This document shows, in pieces, positions 1 through 5,823 of a stretch of DNA of 6,205 bases. Numbering within the stretch: the first letter of the stretch is position 1; the number at the start of each line of letters is the position of its first letter. Under the pieces are notes generated by a model, which searched no databases, was not told the origin of the DNA, and saw nothing but the letters and a program-made list of their open reading frames with translations. This stretch comes from Desulfobacteraceae bacterium (GTDB lineage: Bacteria; Desulfobacterota; Desulfobacteria; Desulfobacterales; Desulfobacteraceae): contig WFQS01000228.1 of NCBI GenBank assembly GCA_015486915.1, positions 1 through 6,205 on the forward strand, written 5' to 3'. The translations under genes were made by a program, and so were the position numbers.

Positions 1-744
1 ATATCCTCCGTAATTTTTTATTGTTTCTTTTGCAGCAACGGCCTTCATCGTACGGATAAACACAGGTTCATCAAAATACTGTCTTAAACAGACATTCTCA
101 CACGGAGCAGGGCAAATCATGCCGCATACATAGGGAAAAGGATTGGTTTCCGTGATAATTTCCACGGCTTTTCCGTAATTTTTCTTTCCTGTTTCAGCAA
201 GAAATCCGGGAATGTCAATGCCGGCGGGACAGGCTTTCTGGCAGGGAGGCGACGATTTTCTAAAGCATATCCCGGCCTGGCATTGTTTGTCAGTTACATG
301 AAGTTTTAAAAACTCTATGTGATCTGACAAAAGGGGTTGTATAAGTGACAATGCTGTTCTGCATAGATCAGAACCTTTTTTTTCAAGAATATCTGCAATG
401 AGCGTCAATTCTCTTACAAATGTTTCTGCAGAATTGTTTTTAGTTTTTCCGGAAAAATTTTCTGTTTTTTCCGGTAAATTATCAACGGGGATGTCCTCAG
501 GGCCTGGGATGTCGTGCAAAGCAGGTGTCTGACCCAAAGCAGGAATCTGATTCAAAAAGAGAGCCTGGTTAAAAGCACAAGGGGCAGCATTATGCATATC
601 AAAACCATAACAGATATTGGTGAGGACTATTGCACACCTTGCAATAATTTTCTTGTCAAATCTTCCATTCTCAGCCCTGTACCAGAGATCAATTAATTGT
701 TCCCGGGCATTGTATACTGCACACTCTTTTCTTTCCTGTTCCAC
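1..744 (-). CDS. N-terminal part of NuoF-C-like/GltD-like iron-sulfur flavoprotein (runs off left edge)
   Basis: The frame is open from GTG at 744-742 to the window edge, giving 248 codons. Residues about 168-219 carry the N-terminal iron-sulfur domain of GltD/dihydropyrimidine-dehydrogenase-type oxidoreductases: C168xxxC172PAGIDIPGF, then C207xxxC211PAPC215xxxC219. Ahead of it, residues about 110-160 resemble the C-terminal iron-sulfur region of NuoF, with a GSDLC motif, a helix reaching DHIEFLKLH, and CQAGIC. A second, weaker NuoF-like stretch lies at residues 8-60. The missing remainder should hold FAD- and NAD(P)-binding domains; that is inference from the family. GTG is chosen because it directly follows a TAA, no Met occurs before residue 50, and AAGGGG lies 12 nt upstream. 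It is probably the electron outlet or inlet (NAD(P)H) of the aldehyde oxidoreductase operon. There is no signal peptide, so it is likely cytoplasmic. Confidence 0.85.
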   Translation of the reverse strand, partial: MEQERKECAVYNAREQLIDLWYRAENGRFDKKIIARCAIVLTNICYGFDMHNAAPCAFNQALFLNQIPALGQTPALHDIPGPEDIPVDNLPEKTENFSGKTKNNSAETFVRELTLIADILEKKGSDLCRTALSLIQPLLSDHIEFLKLHVTDKQCQAGICFRKSSPPCQKACPAGIDIPGFLAETGKKNYGKAVEIITETNPFPYVCGMICPAPCENVCLRQYFDEPVFIRTMKAVAAKETIKNYGGY

Positions 745-840
745 TTAAATATACATCCCCTTAAATATAATTTCTTTTTGTAACTGCCATTTCAAAGTGT
801 CCACAGCGTAAGCCCCCTGAGGCTGATAGATCCAGACCAT
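745..840 (-). CDS. Possible 31-codon small ORF between ferredoxin and flavoprotein genes
   Basis: An ATG at 840-838 opens 31 codons ending in TAA at 747-745, which touches the GTG start of the flavoprotein gene. The peptide starts MVWIYQPQGAYAV and ends FKGMYI; I do not recognise it. The frame is shared with the ferredoxin gene upstream and is open for 46 codons after that gene's TGA, an open length that could arise by chance. No convincing ribosome-binding site precedes the ATG. In favour are the abutting stop/start, which suggests translational coupling, and the lack of any other use for this 141-base gap. Against it, a dispersed repeat motif lies at the upstream end of the gap, so the stretch may be repeat-derived. 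Confidence 0.2.
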   Translation of the reverse strand: MVWIYQPQGAYAVDTLKWQLQKEIIFKGMYI

Positions 841-867
841 CAGGACCCAAAGGCGATCAGGGATTTT

Positions 868-892
868 TGACTTTTTACGGAACCATCAACTC
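868..892. repeat. Short copy of dispersed repeat arm overlapping the ferredoxin stop codon
   Basis: The 25 bases here match 4462-4486 at 20 positions in the same orientation. Both begin TGACTTTTTAC and share a CATCAA core further on. The copy covers the last codons and the TGA stop (888-886) of the ferredoxin gene; on the coding strand it reads as TTGATGG followed by GTAAAAAGTCA. No second inverted arm is visible nearby, so it is a solo arm or chance-conserved motif. Confidence 0.5.
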
Positions 893-1362
893 TGACCGAT
901 GGCCGCCATTGCCTGCTCTGCGGCAAGCCTTCTTGTATCCTGACTTGTGTTTACCTTTGGCACAAATTTTATGGCACCTGCATCACAGAACCTTACGCAC
1001 TGGGGATCTCCACCGCAGAGATCACATTTCATCACTTTTTTATCCACAAAATCATAGGTCATTGCTCCAAAGGGACAGATTGAAACACACATGCGGCAGC
1101 CTATGCACCTGTCGTAATCAACACCCACTACACCAGTATCACTGTCCTTTGAAATTGCACCCATGGGACACACCTCAAGGCAGGGAGCATCATCACACTG
1201 CCTGCACACCATGGGCATGACCTTGCCCTGCATTTCCCATTTCACAATCTTTATTCTTGCCCTGTAGGGATTGACTGTTTTTTCATGCCACACGGAGCAT
1301 ACCTGTTCACACAGTCGGCACCCGGTGCATTTTTCCGGATCTACAACCAGCACTTTTTCCAT
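886..1362 (-). CDS. Four-cluster 4Fe-4S ferredoxin subunit of aldehyde oxidoreductase
   Basis: This 158-residue protein has 16 Cys in four groups: C12-C15-C18-C22, C53-C56-C61-C65, C86-C89-C92-C96 and C113-C116-C122-C126. That fits four 4Fe-4S clusters in a HycB/DmsB-like ferredoxin fold. Family members (AorA, BamC, YdhY) wire an aldehyde oxidoreductase-type tungsten subunit to other electron carriers. It starts 38 nt after the oxidoreductase stop, so it is almost certainly the partner of that protein. I chose ATG at 1362-1360 because AGGAG lies 8 nt upstream; the longer frame would begin with TTG and include that ribosome-binding site. There is no Tat or Sec signal, so it is cytoplasmic. The TGA stop lies in a repeat copy and the frame continues open for 46 codons, but the protein already has the family's usual length. 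Confidence 0.93.
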   Translation of the reverse strand: MEKVLVVDPEKCTGCRLCEQVCSVWHEKTVNPYRARIKIVKWEMQGKVMPMVCRQCDDAPCLEVCPMGAISKDSDTGVVGVDYDRCIGCRMCVSICPFGAMTYDFVDKKVMKCDLCGGDPQCVRFCDAGAIKFVPKVNTSQDTRRLAAEQAMAAIGQS

Positions 1363-1370
1363 TGCAGTTT

Positions 1371-1375
1371 CTCCT
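1371..1375 (-). promoter_or_regulatory. Ribosome-binding site of the ferredoxin gene
   Basis: AGGAG on the minus strand lies 8 nt before ATG 1362-1360. It fixes the start and excludes the TTG-initiated frame 27 nt further upstream, which would place this site inside the coding sequence. Confidence 0.75.
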
Positions 1376-1400
1376 AAAACTTTTATCAAAAATTTTACCT

Positions 1401-3308
1401 TTAAAGCAGATTTGAAGGTTCATTATCAAGACCGAGTTTTGTCAGGGTTTCTTCCATGGGAACACCGTCTTTATCCCAGCCGTGAAGCTGATAGTATTCA
1501 TCAAGCATCAATGAAAATTTATCCCTGTCGATGCATCTTCCCCTTACAACGGGAAGCCCTAAGGGCACCGGTTCATCAAAATAACGGTCAACAAGGTTGT
1601 CCTGGGATCTGTCAAGCCCCTCCCTGATATTGAAAAGTCTCTCCATGGTATAGGCACGGTCTGCAACATCCCATATCTCCCGTGGAGTAAACTCCATACC
1701 GGTATTAAGATAGATCAGTTTTGCCCATTCATCAAAGGCCGGCATGTTGGGTCCGAGAAATACTGTGTGGTATTTGCAGATGCCAAGGCAGTCAACTGCT
1801 TCATAGCAGATTTCCTGCCACAGCACTTCCCAGGGCTTGCCCTCATAATCTCTGAAATCAGATGTAAGAGGTCCATCGTATGGAACCGGACTCCCGTATC
1901 TTTTACGCAGAAATTTTTCCGGCAGATGGTAAAGGTCTATGGCAGGCCGTCCCCTTAAATGATCAGATCCCCTTGAAGAAACAGCAATATTTAATGCAAG
2001 GGCCGGGGTGGGCCGTTCATCTGAATGAAGATTACTCATCCCCTTGACATGGACCTGGTATTTAATGGAATCTTTCCCAATGATTTTTGCAGCACGGATG
2101 GGACCTTCGGCAAGGATATCGCCGATTCCCTCACGATTTGCTATCATATGGATAAGCTTAATGACAGCCTCGTCATTTCCCCAGGTGAGATCAAGACCGC
2201 CTGTATCTTCTTTTGTTATAATTCCCTTTTCATATAATTCCATGGCCCAGGCAATCATGCTGCCCGCCTCAAGGTTGTCAATCCCGTAATAATCCACAAG
2301 ATGATTACCCGTTAAAACCGTTGTCTTGCTCCTGCAGCCGACTTCCGCACCAAAGGCTCCAAGTGAGGTGTATTCAGGCCCTTCGTCGTAGGTGCCCTTA
2401 TAATCCCCTTCTTTAATTATATATTTTCCCCTGCAGTGCACCTGGCATCCAAAGCAGCCTGCAGTTCCGATGAGGTCTTCTTCTATGGATTCAGGCTCTA
2501 TATCATCGGCATCGAGTAACTGATTTGCCTGGAAATTTCTTGTCCTTACAAGGCCTGTGGAGTTTGTAACGCCCCAGATAAAAGGTGTTCCAAGTTTCTG
2601 CATGGTTTTTGACACCTTTGCAGACACAACCTGGTTTATAATTTCCTTGTTGTACTCAAGGGCCTCCATGGGGTGTGCTATATTTATATCCATTGTGCCC
2701 TTTGCAGCAATGGCCTTTAAATTTTTTGAGCCCCAGACAGCTCCCATTCCGGTTCTTCCGGCGGCATTTTTAACTGAAGTCCTCACACAGGCGTATCTGA
2801 CAAGTTTTTCTCCGGAAACTCCGATGCAAAGGGATTTCACATCCATGTCGTTTAGTTCTTCCTGGATCATGGTCTGGGTGAGACATGTGTCTTTTCCCCA
2901 GATATGTGCAGCATCCCTGATCTCTATTTTTCCATTGTTAAGGAAAAGATAAACCGGTTTTTCAGCTTTTCCCTTTATCACAAGGTTATCAAAACCTGCC
3001 AGGCGCATTTCCGGACCAAAGAAACCTCCCACATTGGCTGAACCCACAAATCCGGTAAGTGGAGATTTGGCAGCAACATGGGTTCTTGATGATGCAGATG
3101 CCAGGGTGCCCACAAGGGGGCCTGCACTGACAAGGGCAGCATTTTCTGGTCCTAAGGGATCTGCGTTTTTCGGAACGTGATTGTACAGAAGATACATGTC
3201 AAGTCCCCTGCCGCCAAGATACAGTCTTCTTATTTTTTCCGAAATCGGCTCAATTTTTATTTCTCTGGTGGTTAAATCAATATAAGCAATTTTTCTGTTC
3301 ATGGACAT
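1401..3308 (-). CDS. Tungsten-containing aldehyde:ferredoxin oxidoreductase family protein, catalytic subunit
   Basis: This 635-residue protein spans the full length of the family. It oxidises aldehydes to carboxylic acids, or the reverse, at a tungsten-bispterin site. The N-terminal domain (about 1-205) has the usual LYLGGRGL and AAKSPLTGFVGSANVGGFFGPE segments and the pterin-binding GRTGMGAVWGSKNLKAI (184-200). C285xxC288xxxC292 and C511 in DCLGIC bind the single 4Fe-4S cluster. GPEY (E312) and SDHLRG (H450) probably match the active-site Glu and His of Pyrococcus AOR. These canonical motifs argue against BamB-type benzoyl-CoA reductase. The substrate cannot be read from sequence. ATG 3308-3306 is chosen over an upstream GTG and an out-of-frame ATG because GGAGGT lies 7 nt before it. 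It starts 1 nt after the zinc-ribbon stop, so the two are probably translationally coupled. No signal peptide is present. Confidence 0.95.
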   Translation of the reverse strand: MSMNRKIAYIDLTTREIKIEPISEKIRRLYLGGRGLDMYLLYNHVPKNADPLGPENAALVSAGPLVGTLASASSRTHVAAKSPLTGFVGSANVGGFFGPEMRLAGFDNLVIKGKAEKPVYLFLNNGKIEIRDAAHIWGKDTCLTQTMIQEELNDMDVKSLCIGVSGEKLVRYACVRTSVKNAAGRTGMGAVWGSKNLKAIAAKGTMDINIAHPMEALEYNKEIINQVVSAKVSKTMQKLGTPFIWGVTNSTGLVRTRNFQANQLLDADDIEPESIEEDLIGTAGCFGCQVHCRGKYIIKEGDYKGTYDEGPEYTSLGAFGAEVGCRSKTTVLTGNHLVDYYGIDNLEAGSMIAWAMELYEKGIITKEDTGGLDLTWGNDEAVIKLIHMIANREGIGDILAEGPIRAAKIIGKDSIKYQVHVKGMSNLHSDERPTPALALNIAVSSRGSDHLRGRPAIDLYHLPEKFLRKRYGSPVPYDGPLTSDFRDYEGKPWEVLWQEICYEAVDCLGICKYHTVFLGPNMPAFDEWAKLIYLNTGMEFTPREIWDVADRAYTMERLFNIREGLDRSQDNLVDRYFDEPVPLGLPVVRGRCIDRDKFSLMLDEYYQLHGWDKDGVPMEETLTKLGLDNEPSNLL

Positions 3309-3309
3309 T

Positions 3310-3561
3310 TCATGCACCTCCCTGTTTTTCCATTTCTTCCCGGCTCAATCTCTCATTTGTCTCCCATACCGGCCCCCGGATACGGGGCTCATCAGGAGTA
3401 AACCATGATATTCTCCATGCATAGCCGCAATTCGGGCAGGTAAATTCAGTTGCCCCTTTTGAAGGTTCAACACGTTCAAAACAGTACAGACATCTGAACT
3501 GTCCCGTTGTCCTTCCCTTTATGCTTTTTCTTGATGCATTTTTGTCTGATGAATCTGCCAT
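3310..3561 (-). CDS. Small zinc-ribbon/rubredoxin-like protein, first gene of the AOR operon
   Basis: This 83-residue protein has two CxxC knuckles, C24LYC27 and C42PNC45, 14 residues apart, in a zinc-ribbon arrangement; the second, CPNCGY, also resembles a rubredoxin half-site. The N-terminus is short and basic, and the C-terminus is charged and probably helical. The function is unknown. Sitting 1 nt before the aldehyde oxidoreductase start, with that gene's GGAGGT inside its last codons, it could be a maturation or metal-handling factor, a small regulator, or an electron carrier; all three are inference. A GGGGG-type ribosome-binding site lies a few bases before ATG 3561-3559. It is the promoter-proximal gene, with 175 bases of non-coding DNA upstream. 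Confidence 0.85.
   Translation of the reverse strand: MADSSDKNASRKSIKGRTTGQFRCLYCFERVEPSKGATEFTCPNCGYAWRISWFTPDEPRIRGPVWETNERLSREEMEKQGGA
3316..3321 (-). promoter_or_regulatory. GGAGGT ribosome-binding site of the oxidoreductase gene
   Basis: A perfect GGAGGT lies 7 nt before ATG 3308-3306 and within the final codons of the zinc-ribbon gene. It overlaps the alternative GTG start at 3317-3315, which rules that codon out. Confidence 0.85.
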
Positions 3562-3736: not shown

Positions 3737-4147
3737 TTAATCTCTCTGGCAAAGCTCAACCAACACCCCAGAAGTTGCCTTTGGATGAAGAAAGGCTATT
3801 TTTGCGCCTCCTGCACCATTCCGGGGTTTTTCATCGATAAGGCGGACACCTTTTTCTTTAAGCTCCTTAAGGGCCTCCTCAACATTTTCAACCCTGAATG
3901 CAACATGCTGGATTCCTTCACCCCTTTTCTCAATATACTTGGCAACTGGTCCATCAGGAGATGTGGATTCAAGAAGTTCAATCTCACTTCCTGTTTCGCC
4001 CACGGGCAGGAAACCGGTTGTAACTTTCTGTGCCTCAACGGTTTCCTTTCCTGCAAATTTAAGCCCAAGAACATCAGACCAAAAATTTTTCCCATTTTCC
4101 ATATCTTTAACTGCAATACCCAAGTGATCAATTCCTTTTATTTCCAT
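3737..4147 (-). CDS. mce: Methylmalonyl-CoA epimerase
   Basis: This 136-residue single-chain protein has the vicinal-oxygen-chelate fold typical of the family. It interconverts (R)- and (S)-methylmalonyl-CoA, linking propionyl-CoA metabolism to succinyl-CoA through methylmalonyl-CoA mutase. Probable metal ligands are H8 in IDHLGIAV, E57 in EIELLE, H81 in GIQHVAF and E131 in VLVELC. The repeated beta-alpha-beta halves run about 4-60 and 77-135. Length and the [13 protein letters not shown] loop near the C-terminus are standard. Ribosome-binding options are AAGGA just before the ATG or GGGGGA about 8 nt upstream. It stands alone: a terminator lies upstream at 4253-4297, and 175 bases separate it from the next operon. 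No mutase or carboxyltransferase gene is in the window. The oxidoreductase operon need not be functionally linked to it. Confidence 0.95.
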
Positions 4148-4503: not shown

Positions 4504-5823
4504 TCAAAATCCGGTTTCGGGATGAAAAACATTTAATTCCTTAAGATCATCACGGAGATATTCACGTTCATTGGGACCGAGAATTCCAAGAGAAAGACAG
4601 ATCAACGTCCACAGATGTACAACACCGTATCCTCCTCCGTAATGTTCGCTTAATTCATGGATCTGGGCGTGACAGTTATGGCATGCTGCAATGCAGTAAT
4701 CAGCCTTGGTCGCCTGGATCTGGTCATCCTTGGTTTTTCCATAGGCAAGTCTTTCATCCTTAAAACCTGACTGGAGAAAGCCGCCGCCGCCACCGCAACA
4801 GAAATTATTTGATCTGTTCGGGGTCATATCAATGAAGTTTTCTTCCCCCACAACGGATTTCACAATAAACCTTAAATCCTCTGCAATGGGGTCTCCAAAT
4901 GATTTACGAACAATCTGGCATGGATCCTGAACTGTAAACTTTATTTTCAGATCCTTGTTCCAGTCGGAATTAACTTTAAGTTTTCCTTCCCTGATCCATT
5001 TTGCATAATATTCATATATATTTTTAATTTCAAAATCATGCTCTATATTAAATTTTCTCACTCCTTCCAGGACTGAATATGTTACGTGCCCTCACTCGGT
5101 GTTGAGAAACGTTTTACACCCCACTTCCTTTGCCGCATTAACGGTCTGTGTTGTAAGATGCTTCCATGCGTCATCATCGGCAAGAAACATGCAGTAATTT
5201 TCTCCTCCCCATCCCTTGCTTGTATATGTCCAGTCCACACCAACAGTATGGAGTATTTTCCACAGGGGAACAAGCTCATCGGGCTCGGTAACCGGCTCCC
5301 TTGAATTTTGGTTTAAAACAAATTCAGCTCCTTTCTTATCGATGGGAGCCTGCATATCTGCAAATTCAGGCTGATTTTCCTGATACTCCTCTAGCACATC
5401 ACCCACAACAAAAATAAAATCATCCACAGGAGTACCCATGGCACTGCCCGATTCATTGGTAAGAGCTGCATCACATGATCCAAGGATACCCTTTGGCCTT
5501 GTTTCCCTTGGCCATGCTGCCCTGACATTATAGACAAGAGCAGGTATATTTATTTCCATGGGACATACATGCACACATCTCTGGCACATTGAACACATCC
5601 ATGCCCAGTTTGAACTTAAAAGTTCATCATCCATTCCAAGGGCCGCCATCCTTAAAAACTTTCTCGGGTCCATTCCCTCAAGTCCCGTAGCTGGACAGCC
5701 CGATGCACATGCCCCGCATGTAAGACAGGCATTAAGATTCCCGCCATCCGGCAGAAGTTCCATTACCTTGTCTTTAAAAATACTTTTTTTCTCACCACTA
5801 ATTTTAACAGCTGCTTCACCCAT
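4504..5823 (-). CDS. HdrD-like (Fe-S)-binding oxidoreductase, probable selenoprotein (in-frame TGA at codon 244)
   Basis: This is one 439-codon gene read through TGA at 5094-5092. Residues 33-43 (CLTCGACASGC) and 77-87 (CSMCQRCVHVC) bind two 4Fe-4S clusters. A C-terminal CCG domain has C302, C342-C343 in a CCGGGGG stretch and C381xxC384, as in HdrB/HdrD, where it binds a special 4Fe-4S cluster. The first CCG-like half is degenerate, with C211, C236 and the TGA inside NTE-X-GHVTYSVLEG, where relatives as I recall them have Cys. Overall layout resembles HmcF/TmcB proteins of sulfate reducers, which handle electron transfer with membrane complexes. No such partner is in the window. ATG 5823-5821 follows GGAGG by 10 nt. 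There is no signal peptide or membrane span. The alternative is a nonsense mutation; the SECIS-like hairpin and intact downstream frame make selenocysteine more likely. Confidence 0.85.
5057..5094 (-). promoter_or_regulatory. UGA codon with bacterial SECIS-like hairpin
   Basis: After TGA (5094-5092) the transcript can fold TTCAGTCC (5077-5070) against GGAGTGAG (5064-5057): seven pairs including one G-U, with one internal G-G mismatch and apical loop TGGAA (5069-5065). The loop begins 23 nt after the TGA and has G at its second position. Known bacterial SECIS elements have this geometry: an apical loop roughly 16-37 nt downstream with a G among the first two loop bases. I folded it by eye only. 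Confidence 0.55.

Follow-up and report, generated by a model that had tools for sequence, protein, structure and literature searches.

The best overall explanation for a gene on the minus strand of the window, the whole 6,205-nucleotide stretch of Desulfobacteraceae contig WFQS01000228.1 that was analysed, is a selenocysteine-containing subunit of the HdrD type that would partner a MetVF-HdrA-MvhD complex, a reading that is given a probability of about 0.6. The gene appears to be broken by a stop codon, yet it encodes a single iron-sulfur protein. The features of the gene are as follows.

4504..5823, minus strand: whole selenoprotein gene, 439 codons plus a TGA stop, with an HdrC-like N-terminus fused to an HdrB-like C-terminus (HdrD/HmcF/TmcB-type); from frame, homologues, domains and related loci.
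5548..5736, minus strand: HdrC-like dicluster [4Fe-4S] domain, residues 30-92; from domain and PDB matches and eight Cys that are conserved in 121 of 121 alignment rows (query included).
5074..5496, minus strand: degenerate first CCG region, similar to the HdrB N-terminus, residues 110-250, limits approximate; from alignments.
5092..5094, minus strand: in-frame TGA, codon 244, almost certainly read as selenocysteine in NTE-U-GH; from the Cys column and the TGA of related loci.
5058..5076, minus strand: SECIS-like hairpin with apical loop GGA, 7 of 8 pairs formed in the window and one G.G mismatch; from comparative RNA analysis and SECIS criteria.
4660..4935, minus strand: intact second CCG domain, residues 297-388; from Pfam CCG and alignment.

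The frame runs from an ATG at 5823 to a natural TGA stop at 4506-4504, and the TGA at codon 244 is the sole interruption of its 439 codons. Mechanical ORF listing gives two pieces in a common frame, 5823-5092 (243 amino acids) and 5061-4504 (185 amino acids). The original prediction had taken these for the halves of one gene split by the TGA only, with ten codons, GHVTYSVLEG, before the next possible start; the frame is built in this way, with GTG as that start, and 80 of 80 related loci align across the TGA. The accompanying warning that standard annotation would report two fragments or a pseudogene fits the same mechanical calling. Since ORF calling splits the gene and the protein scores under the cut-off of every NCBIfam model of June 2026, this selenoprotein is easily missed or called broken, and strong matches (E 1e-185 or better) are present in 96 of 117 sampled genomes of the class.

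The interrupting codon lies where a cysteine had been expected. Cys occupies column 244, as ECGH, in the alignment of all 120 listed protein-database homologues, drawn from 2341 at E values up to 1e-20; given that Sec genes are usually split by ORF calling, a protein search tends to show Cys only. At the DNA level, the best 80 of at least 564 confirmed loci were kept, a sample that is therefore enriched for the Sec clade and to which two assemblies contribute two loci each. In all 80, the best match aligns from residue 1 or 2 to residues 435-439 with TGA exactly at codon 244, and its aligned part holds no other in-frame stop, a conservation that is far beyond chance. The second copies in L003 and L005 likewise carry TGA at codon 244, such that TGA is found in 83 of the 84 plus-strand rows from the 80 loci, the second copies and the window, the single TGC belonging to a distant paralogue in L077 (32% identity). 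Outside this count, minus-strand paralogues have TGC in L014 (66%) and TGT in L047 (31%). The 13 Cys rows from fetched loci use TGC in 12 cases and TGT in one. Among the class-genome matches listed, 12 rows lack a stop, one has TAA only and the rest have one TGA, with a second stop in two of the TGA rows. Additional stops were considered as additional recoding and rejected, given that in L146 and L147 (TGA plus TAG or TAA) and in L132 (TAA only) the stop falls at residues 433-437, the end of the protein; the TAA-only copy of L132 has TGC at codon 244. A TAG also occurs in the copy of G024; the end positions given are those of the three other loci. Tandem Sec copies occur at L003:8001-11095 and L005:1102-4147, with an identity to the query of about 70% for the second copy.

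The Sec and Cys copies also largely separate by descent. In a tree of 232 rows, a single set of 102 rows (SH-aLRT 97, by a quick method) takes in 98 of the 99 Sec rows, and the Sec/Cys label requires 5 changes on the tree, compared to a mean of 75 when shuffled. Four Cys rows nested in the 102-row set (P0002, P0003, P0099 and P0101) may be Sec-to-Cys reversions or records that write U as C. The window copy groups with that of the Desulfobacteraceae draft G001 (WGCX01000177.1).

An RNA hairpin follows the TGA. In 99 TGA rows, representing 98 genes (one fetched twice) and 96 distinct fragments, an 8-pair stem starts 15 nt past the TGA, with all 8 pairs formed in 69 rows, 7 in 28 and 6 in 2; the 13 Cys rows form 1-6 of the 8. 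Across the 83 sequences (71 distinct) of the covariation set, 96.3% of hairpin cells are paired and 38 are double-change cells. Double changes affect four of the pairs, and the top pair is UA in 34 sequences and GC in 33. None of 500 shuffles matches the pairing, the double-change cells or the covariation score, while 17 attain the count of further pair types and two the count of pairs with double changes. Slid controls are at most 45.4% paired, and in a control by synonymous recoding the observed pairing of 96.1% compares to a mean of 57.3% and a maximum of 61.5% over 300 recodings. Six of the eight pairs are also recovered by RNAalifold on its own.

In the accessible text of PMC13188914, a bacterial SECIS element has a loop of 3-9 nt, an upper stem of 4-16 bp, a G in the first two loop positions, a spacing of 16-37 nt and an MFE of at most -7.5. 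The window hairpin, of 7 pairs in all, agrees with the four criteria printed there, with a 3-nt GGA loop, a 4-bp upper stem, 23 nt and -7.6 kcal/mol. The folding energy of this single hairpin is unremarkable (z -1.04, with 31 of 200 shuffles as good) and was dropped as evidence, such that the comparative evidence alone counts. Rfam matches in the window, all far under gathering scores, were also discarded. The codon for residue 252 lies at the top of the stem and specifies Leu or Arg in 99 of 99 TGA rows (50 CTG, 49 CGG); of the 121 rows in the alignment of Cys proteins, 113 have Trp there. The RNA hairpin thus seems to dictate this protein residue.

These data bear on two explanations in which no selenocysteine is inserted. 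If the TGA were a real stop, the gene would be a pseudogene, a sequencing error or two separate proteins, as might be read from the two mechanical ORFs, the second with its GTG start, and from the nearest draft genome, in which SelB and tRNA-Sec do not score over cut-off. That explanation is refuted for practical purposes: all 80 loci, which come from many assemblies, have the same TGA between two conserved halves, and compensating changes maintain a single hairpin. Alternatively, TGA might be read as another amino acid genome-wide (e.g. Trp, as in code 4) or by leaky read-through. The frame is indeed open with TGA as a residue, but the same gene terminates at TGA about where Cys homologues end (mostly at 430-450 amino acids, with extremes of 412 and 532), and therefore TGA is not read as a residue throughout. 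Moreover, the 120 listed homologues show Cys and not Trp at 244, and the SECIS-like hairpin would be left without explanation. This alternative was rejected as even more improbable than a real stop.

Selenocysteine machinery, which the original prediction had proposed to look for, was sought over cut-off in relatives, with 23 genomes that carry the loci compared to 14 control genomes. The locus genomes have SelA in 23, SelB in 18, SelD in 20 and tRNA-Sec in 21 cases, as against 1, 2, 2 and 5, respectively, of the controls; the tRNA-Sec search is the weakest of the four, given that 5 of 14 controls pass its cut-off. Most relatives therefore hold selA, selB, selD and tRNA-Sec, with gaps in some drafts. 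One such draft is G001, the nearest genome (98% identity, 2.9 Mb), in which SelA and SelD were found, the latter itself with a TGA, and in which SelB and tRNA-Sec were not found over cut-off. SelB scores over cut-off in 109 of the 117 class genomes. In seven, G001 included, there is no SelB match at E 1e-62, and all seven hold a copy of the gene with TGA, so the missing SelB is read as putative draft incompleteness. The pairing of Cys with TGA, the covarying SECIS and the machinery of the relatives all support selenocysteine, and on this sequence evidence UGA-244 is almost certainly decoded in this way. Two conditions under which the original prediction would have fallen, a column lacking Cys or Sec and a lack of Sec machinery, were examined in relatives, and both results favour the prediction. 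The proposal of an HdrD-like protein with Sec in its degenerate N-terminal CCG half is upheld on the same three grounds.

The domains suggest what the protein might do. Its main PDB relatives are HdrC and HdrB. Residues 30-92 match dicluster ferredoxin domains, for which HdrC is closest in the PDB, and Pfam CCG matches residues 297-388 at 45.2 bits (cut-off 20.6), in agreement with the intact CCG domain predicted for the downstream half. In that second CCG, every one of the 121 rows has Cys302, 342, 381 and 384, and 120 of them have Cys343. In the first CCG region, Cys117, Cys211 and the Sec244 column are kept throughout the 121 rows; a CC pair and a second CxxC Cys are missing. The chain thus joins an HdrC-like dicluster to an HdrB-like domain, as in HdrD fusions, although of the two CCG cluster-binding motifs of HdrD only the second is complete. 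Taken together, these matches make an HdrCB-type electron-transfer subunit highly probable.

The place of Sec244 was compared to HdrB structures with a 16-sequence profile, in which ECGH is invariant in 16 of 16 rows, including two distant paralogues. Three of five PDB alignments span ECGH, and all three pair its Cys with the leading Cys of a CxxC, namely that of TECNGC for HdrB of 8rvu and of 8rvv and that of TCPHC for 9ojn; the alignments to 5odc and 9sfi start beyond ECGH. These are alignments of 35-36 bits with low posterior values in the ECGH part, and for that reason the placement of Sec244 on the first Cys of the HdrB N-terminal CxxC is probable rather than certain. In HdrB, that first Cys ligates the N-terminal non-cubane cluster. 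Given the absence of the CC pair and of the second CxxC Cys from the first CCG, at most one HdrB-type cluster is expected. Methanogen HdrB/HdrC (5odc, 8rvu and 8rvv) share the HdrC-like dicluster and a second CCG with CCG and CxxC Cys; in contrast to methanogen HdrB, the first CCG of the selenoprotein has neither the CC pair nor the second CxxC Cys, and Sec replaces the first. The balance tips slightly towards Sec lying directly at the cluster or substrate, and selenium might serve there as a ligand tuner or as an active-site thiol.

The selenoprotein family itself is already known, under the name "Fe-S oxidoreductase-like (GlpC), UGH". What is new comes from comparison, namely the weak alignment of Sec on the HdrB CxxC, the gene order with HdrA/MvhD and metV, the loci with three TGA codons, and the near relatives in which a metV-metF-hdrA-mvhD operon lacks the gene. 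The original prediction had allowed that the family may not be new, and the UGH family is indeed in print: a "Fe-S oxidoreductase-like protein, PTHR43551, UGH" is among the selenoproteins listed in the accessible part of PMC13188914, and hdrD4 of Desulfobacterium autotrophicum HRM2 is named a selenoprotein in that of PMC2702500. Similarly, the available text of PMC8318568 places an Fe-S oxidoreductase among deltaproteobacterial selenoproteins, and passages of PMC1794560, PMC13188914 and PMC9312934 describe one clustered with Sec-containing HdrA and FrhD/MvhD. The window gene shares with the UGH family (GlpC, COG0247, PTHR43551), as described there for deltaproteobacteria, a Sec codon in U-G-H of an Fe-S oxidoreductase whose homologues carry Cys at that column; the assignment is by the motif and SECIS criteria in the accessible text of PMC13188914, where the representative of the family is WP_174406253.1. 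The HdrD (HdrCB-fused) proteins of D. autotrophicum HRM2 are also alike, as soluble fusions of HdrC and HdrB with Sec in hdrD4, according to passages of PMC2702500, and orthology with hdrD4, beside which the gene is set by that description, is likely.

The best named NCBIfam models are TmcB, HmcF and DsrK, at 169, 166 and 126 bits compared to cut-offs of 735, 750 and 400, such that the protein falls outside all three equivalogs. TmcB, HmcF and DsrK act in sulfate respiration. The ECGH motif of the family recurs in the two distant paralogues, one in L047 and one in L077.

Next after the gene in the window come genes for a methylmalonyl-CoA epimerase (3737-4147) and a zinc-ribbon protein, and then a cluster with an aldehyde ferredoxin oxidoreductase; the other five window proteins were scanned and none reaches the cut-off of an Hdr model. 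The aldehyde ferredoxin oxidoreductase, in 1-3561, has ferredoxin-like and FAD/NAD-type neighbours. In the near relative L001, an apparent methylmalonyl-CoA mutase, MeaB and succinyl-CoA synthetase, named by eye, lie behind the epimerase.

The relatives place the gene in other company. A search for seven neighbour families finds HdrA/MvhD matches within 900 bp upstream in 27 of the 80 relatives; MetV is downstream in 17 of these 27, with MetF as well in 14. Four other loci have MetF and HdrA downstream, and two have MetF alone on one side. In L030, L057 and L071 the gene lies directly behind metV-metF-hdrA-hdrA/mvhD, where the MvhD site is Ser. A metV/metF-hdrA-mvhD cluster is thus absent from the window and is found as hdrA/mvhD-gene-metV in 17 of 80 relatives and in those three loci. 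At 12 loci (L008, L013, L015, L024, L025, L026, L044, L053, L054, L069, L074 and L078), hdrA, mvhD and the selenoprotein gene all have TGA at their Sec sites, verified as codons. The gene order of the relatives suggests a role in the one-carbon metabolism of sulfate-reducing bacteria. None of the seven families is present in 20 of 81 sequences, the window included, and so the link to MetVF is indirect.

The complex MetFV-HdrABC-MvhD is that of Moorella thermoacetica. The partner gene families beside the relatives are the same set, and unlike the Moorella complex, with its separate HdrB and HdrC, the relatives have one fused HdrCB-type selenoprotein. The Moorella complex is cited in passages of PMC10553843 on metF-HdrABC in Seep-SRB1g, and those passages mention neither an HdrCB fusion nor Sec. 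In the operons printed for the UGH family in the accessible text, the order is glpC-hdrA-frhD-frhG-frhA with hydrogenase, as opposed to hdrA-mvhD-gene-metV-metF or metV-metF-hdrA-hdrA/mvhD-gene in the relatives, and the window copy differs from the printed operons in having no Hdr neighbour. Among the literature titles and abstract openings covered, a scope that leaves most subscription journals outside, there is no Sec HdrD-type protein with MetV/MetF.

Within the clade of the window, the metV-metF-hdrA-hdrA/mvhD operon occurs without the gene, with several kb behind it fetched, in four of four genomes checked (G001, G002, G003 and G005), and none of the four has a stop at its MvhD site. In G014, metV-metF are present, with no HdrA match within the stretch examined. 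In G001, a second Sec copy (L171) neighbours mvhD and hdrA, and all three genes contain a single internal stop. The 20 loci with Sec copies that are 68-72% identical have HdrA/MvhD and MetV/MetF nearby in 8 cases, HdrA alone in one and none of the searched families in 11.

A different partner would also account for much of this. A Sec-containing HdrD-type protein could exchange electrons with HdrA-MvhD modules or ferredoxin on one side and with a thiol-disulfide carrier, for instance DsrC, on the other, with no specific link to MetVF. The 53 of 80 loci without an HdrA/MvhD match within 900 bp upstream would fit such a role, as would the nearest named models and the recurrence of other neighbours: a 123-amino acid family downstream in 18 of 80 loci (e.g. 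L011:2920-3291), with no Pfam match at 1e-5 and no NCBIfam match at 1e-10, and a CGGC-domain protein upstream in 10. However, the redox neighbour that recurs in the clade of the query is HdrA/MvhD, often with MetV/MetF, and the same partners lie near 8 of the 20 loci just described. We regard the different partner as possible, at less than even odds. Partnership of the HdrCB-type subunit with the MetVF-HdrA-MvhD complex is put at even odds.

In the favoured explanation, with a MetVF-linked partner, the protein would be a soluble, HdrD-type HdrC-HdrB fusion. Electrons would pass through the two [4Fe-4S] clusters of the HdrC-like part to one HdrB-like non-cubane cluster bound by the C-terminal CCG domain. 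Sec244 would take the first Cys place of the HdrB N-terminal CxxC and face this cluster site, acting either as a selenolate ligand or as an attacking group. The main partner would be a flavin module of HdrA and MvhD that is linked to the methylene-tetrahydrofolate reductase MetV-MetF and used in the Wood-Ljungdahl pathway; in the clade of the window, where the gene lies apart from the metV-metF-hdrA-mvhD operon, the protein would act in trans. A bolder and rather doubtful version, built from the gene orders and TGA sites, is that the protein is a detached, selenium-bearing catalytic subunit of the MetVF-HdrA-MvhD methylene-tetrahydrofolate reductase complex in Desulfobacterales. Its sister versions would have selenium at successive stations of one electron path, with a Sec in each of HdrA, MvhD and this subunit, and a selenolate would take part in the non-cubane cluster site of HdrB type. 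We know of no solved Hdr structure with a selenolate in such a site. If the MetVF-Hdr link is true, some of these sulfate reducers would have selenium in three places within the same electron-bifurcating C1 enzyme, and the function of a selenolate at an HdrB-type cluster would become testable.

A second set of selenocysteine genes was also observed. Two SelB matches at E 1e-62 occur in 15 of the 117 class genomes, and at 13 of 13 loci (L131-L143) a tRNA-Sec gene lies within about 0.5 kb of the second SelB. In L133, genes for a double-cubane reductase and an activase come after SelB, and a YedE selenium transporter lies beyond them. No UGA-containing target genes were found near the second SelB loci, the candidates being judged by eye as antisense or frame artefacts. 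Eight of the 13 loci include, within their 12-19 kb, a Cys copy of the UGH-type gene; a sense-codon Sec code for these copies is unlikely, because the tRNA anticodon is UCA in all 13. In L136, group II intron copies at 263-510 and 6044-6291 flank the Cys copy of the gene.
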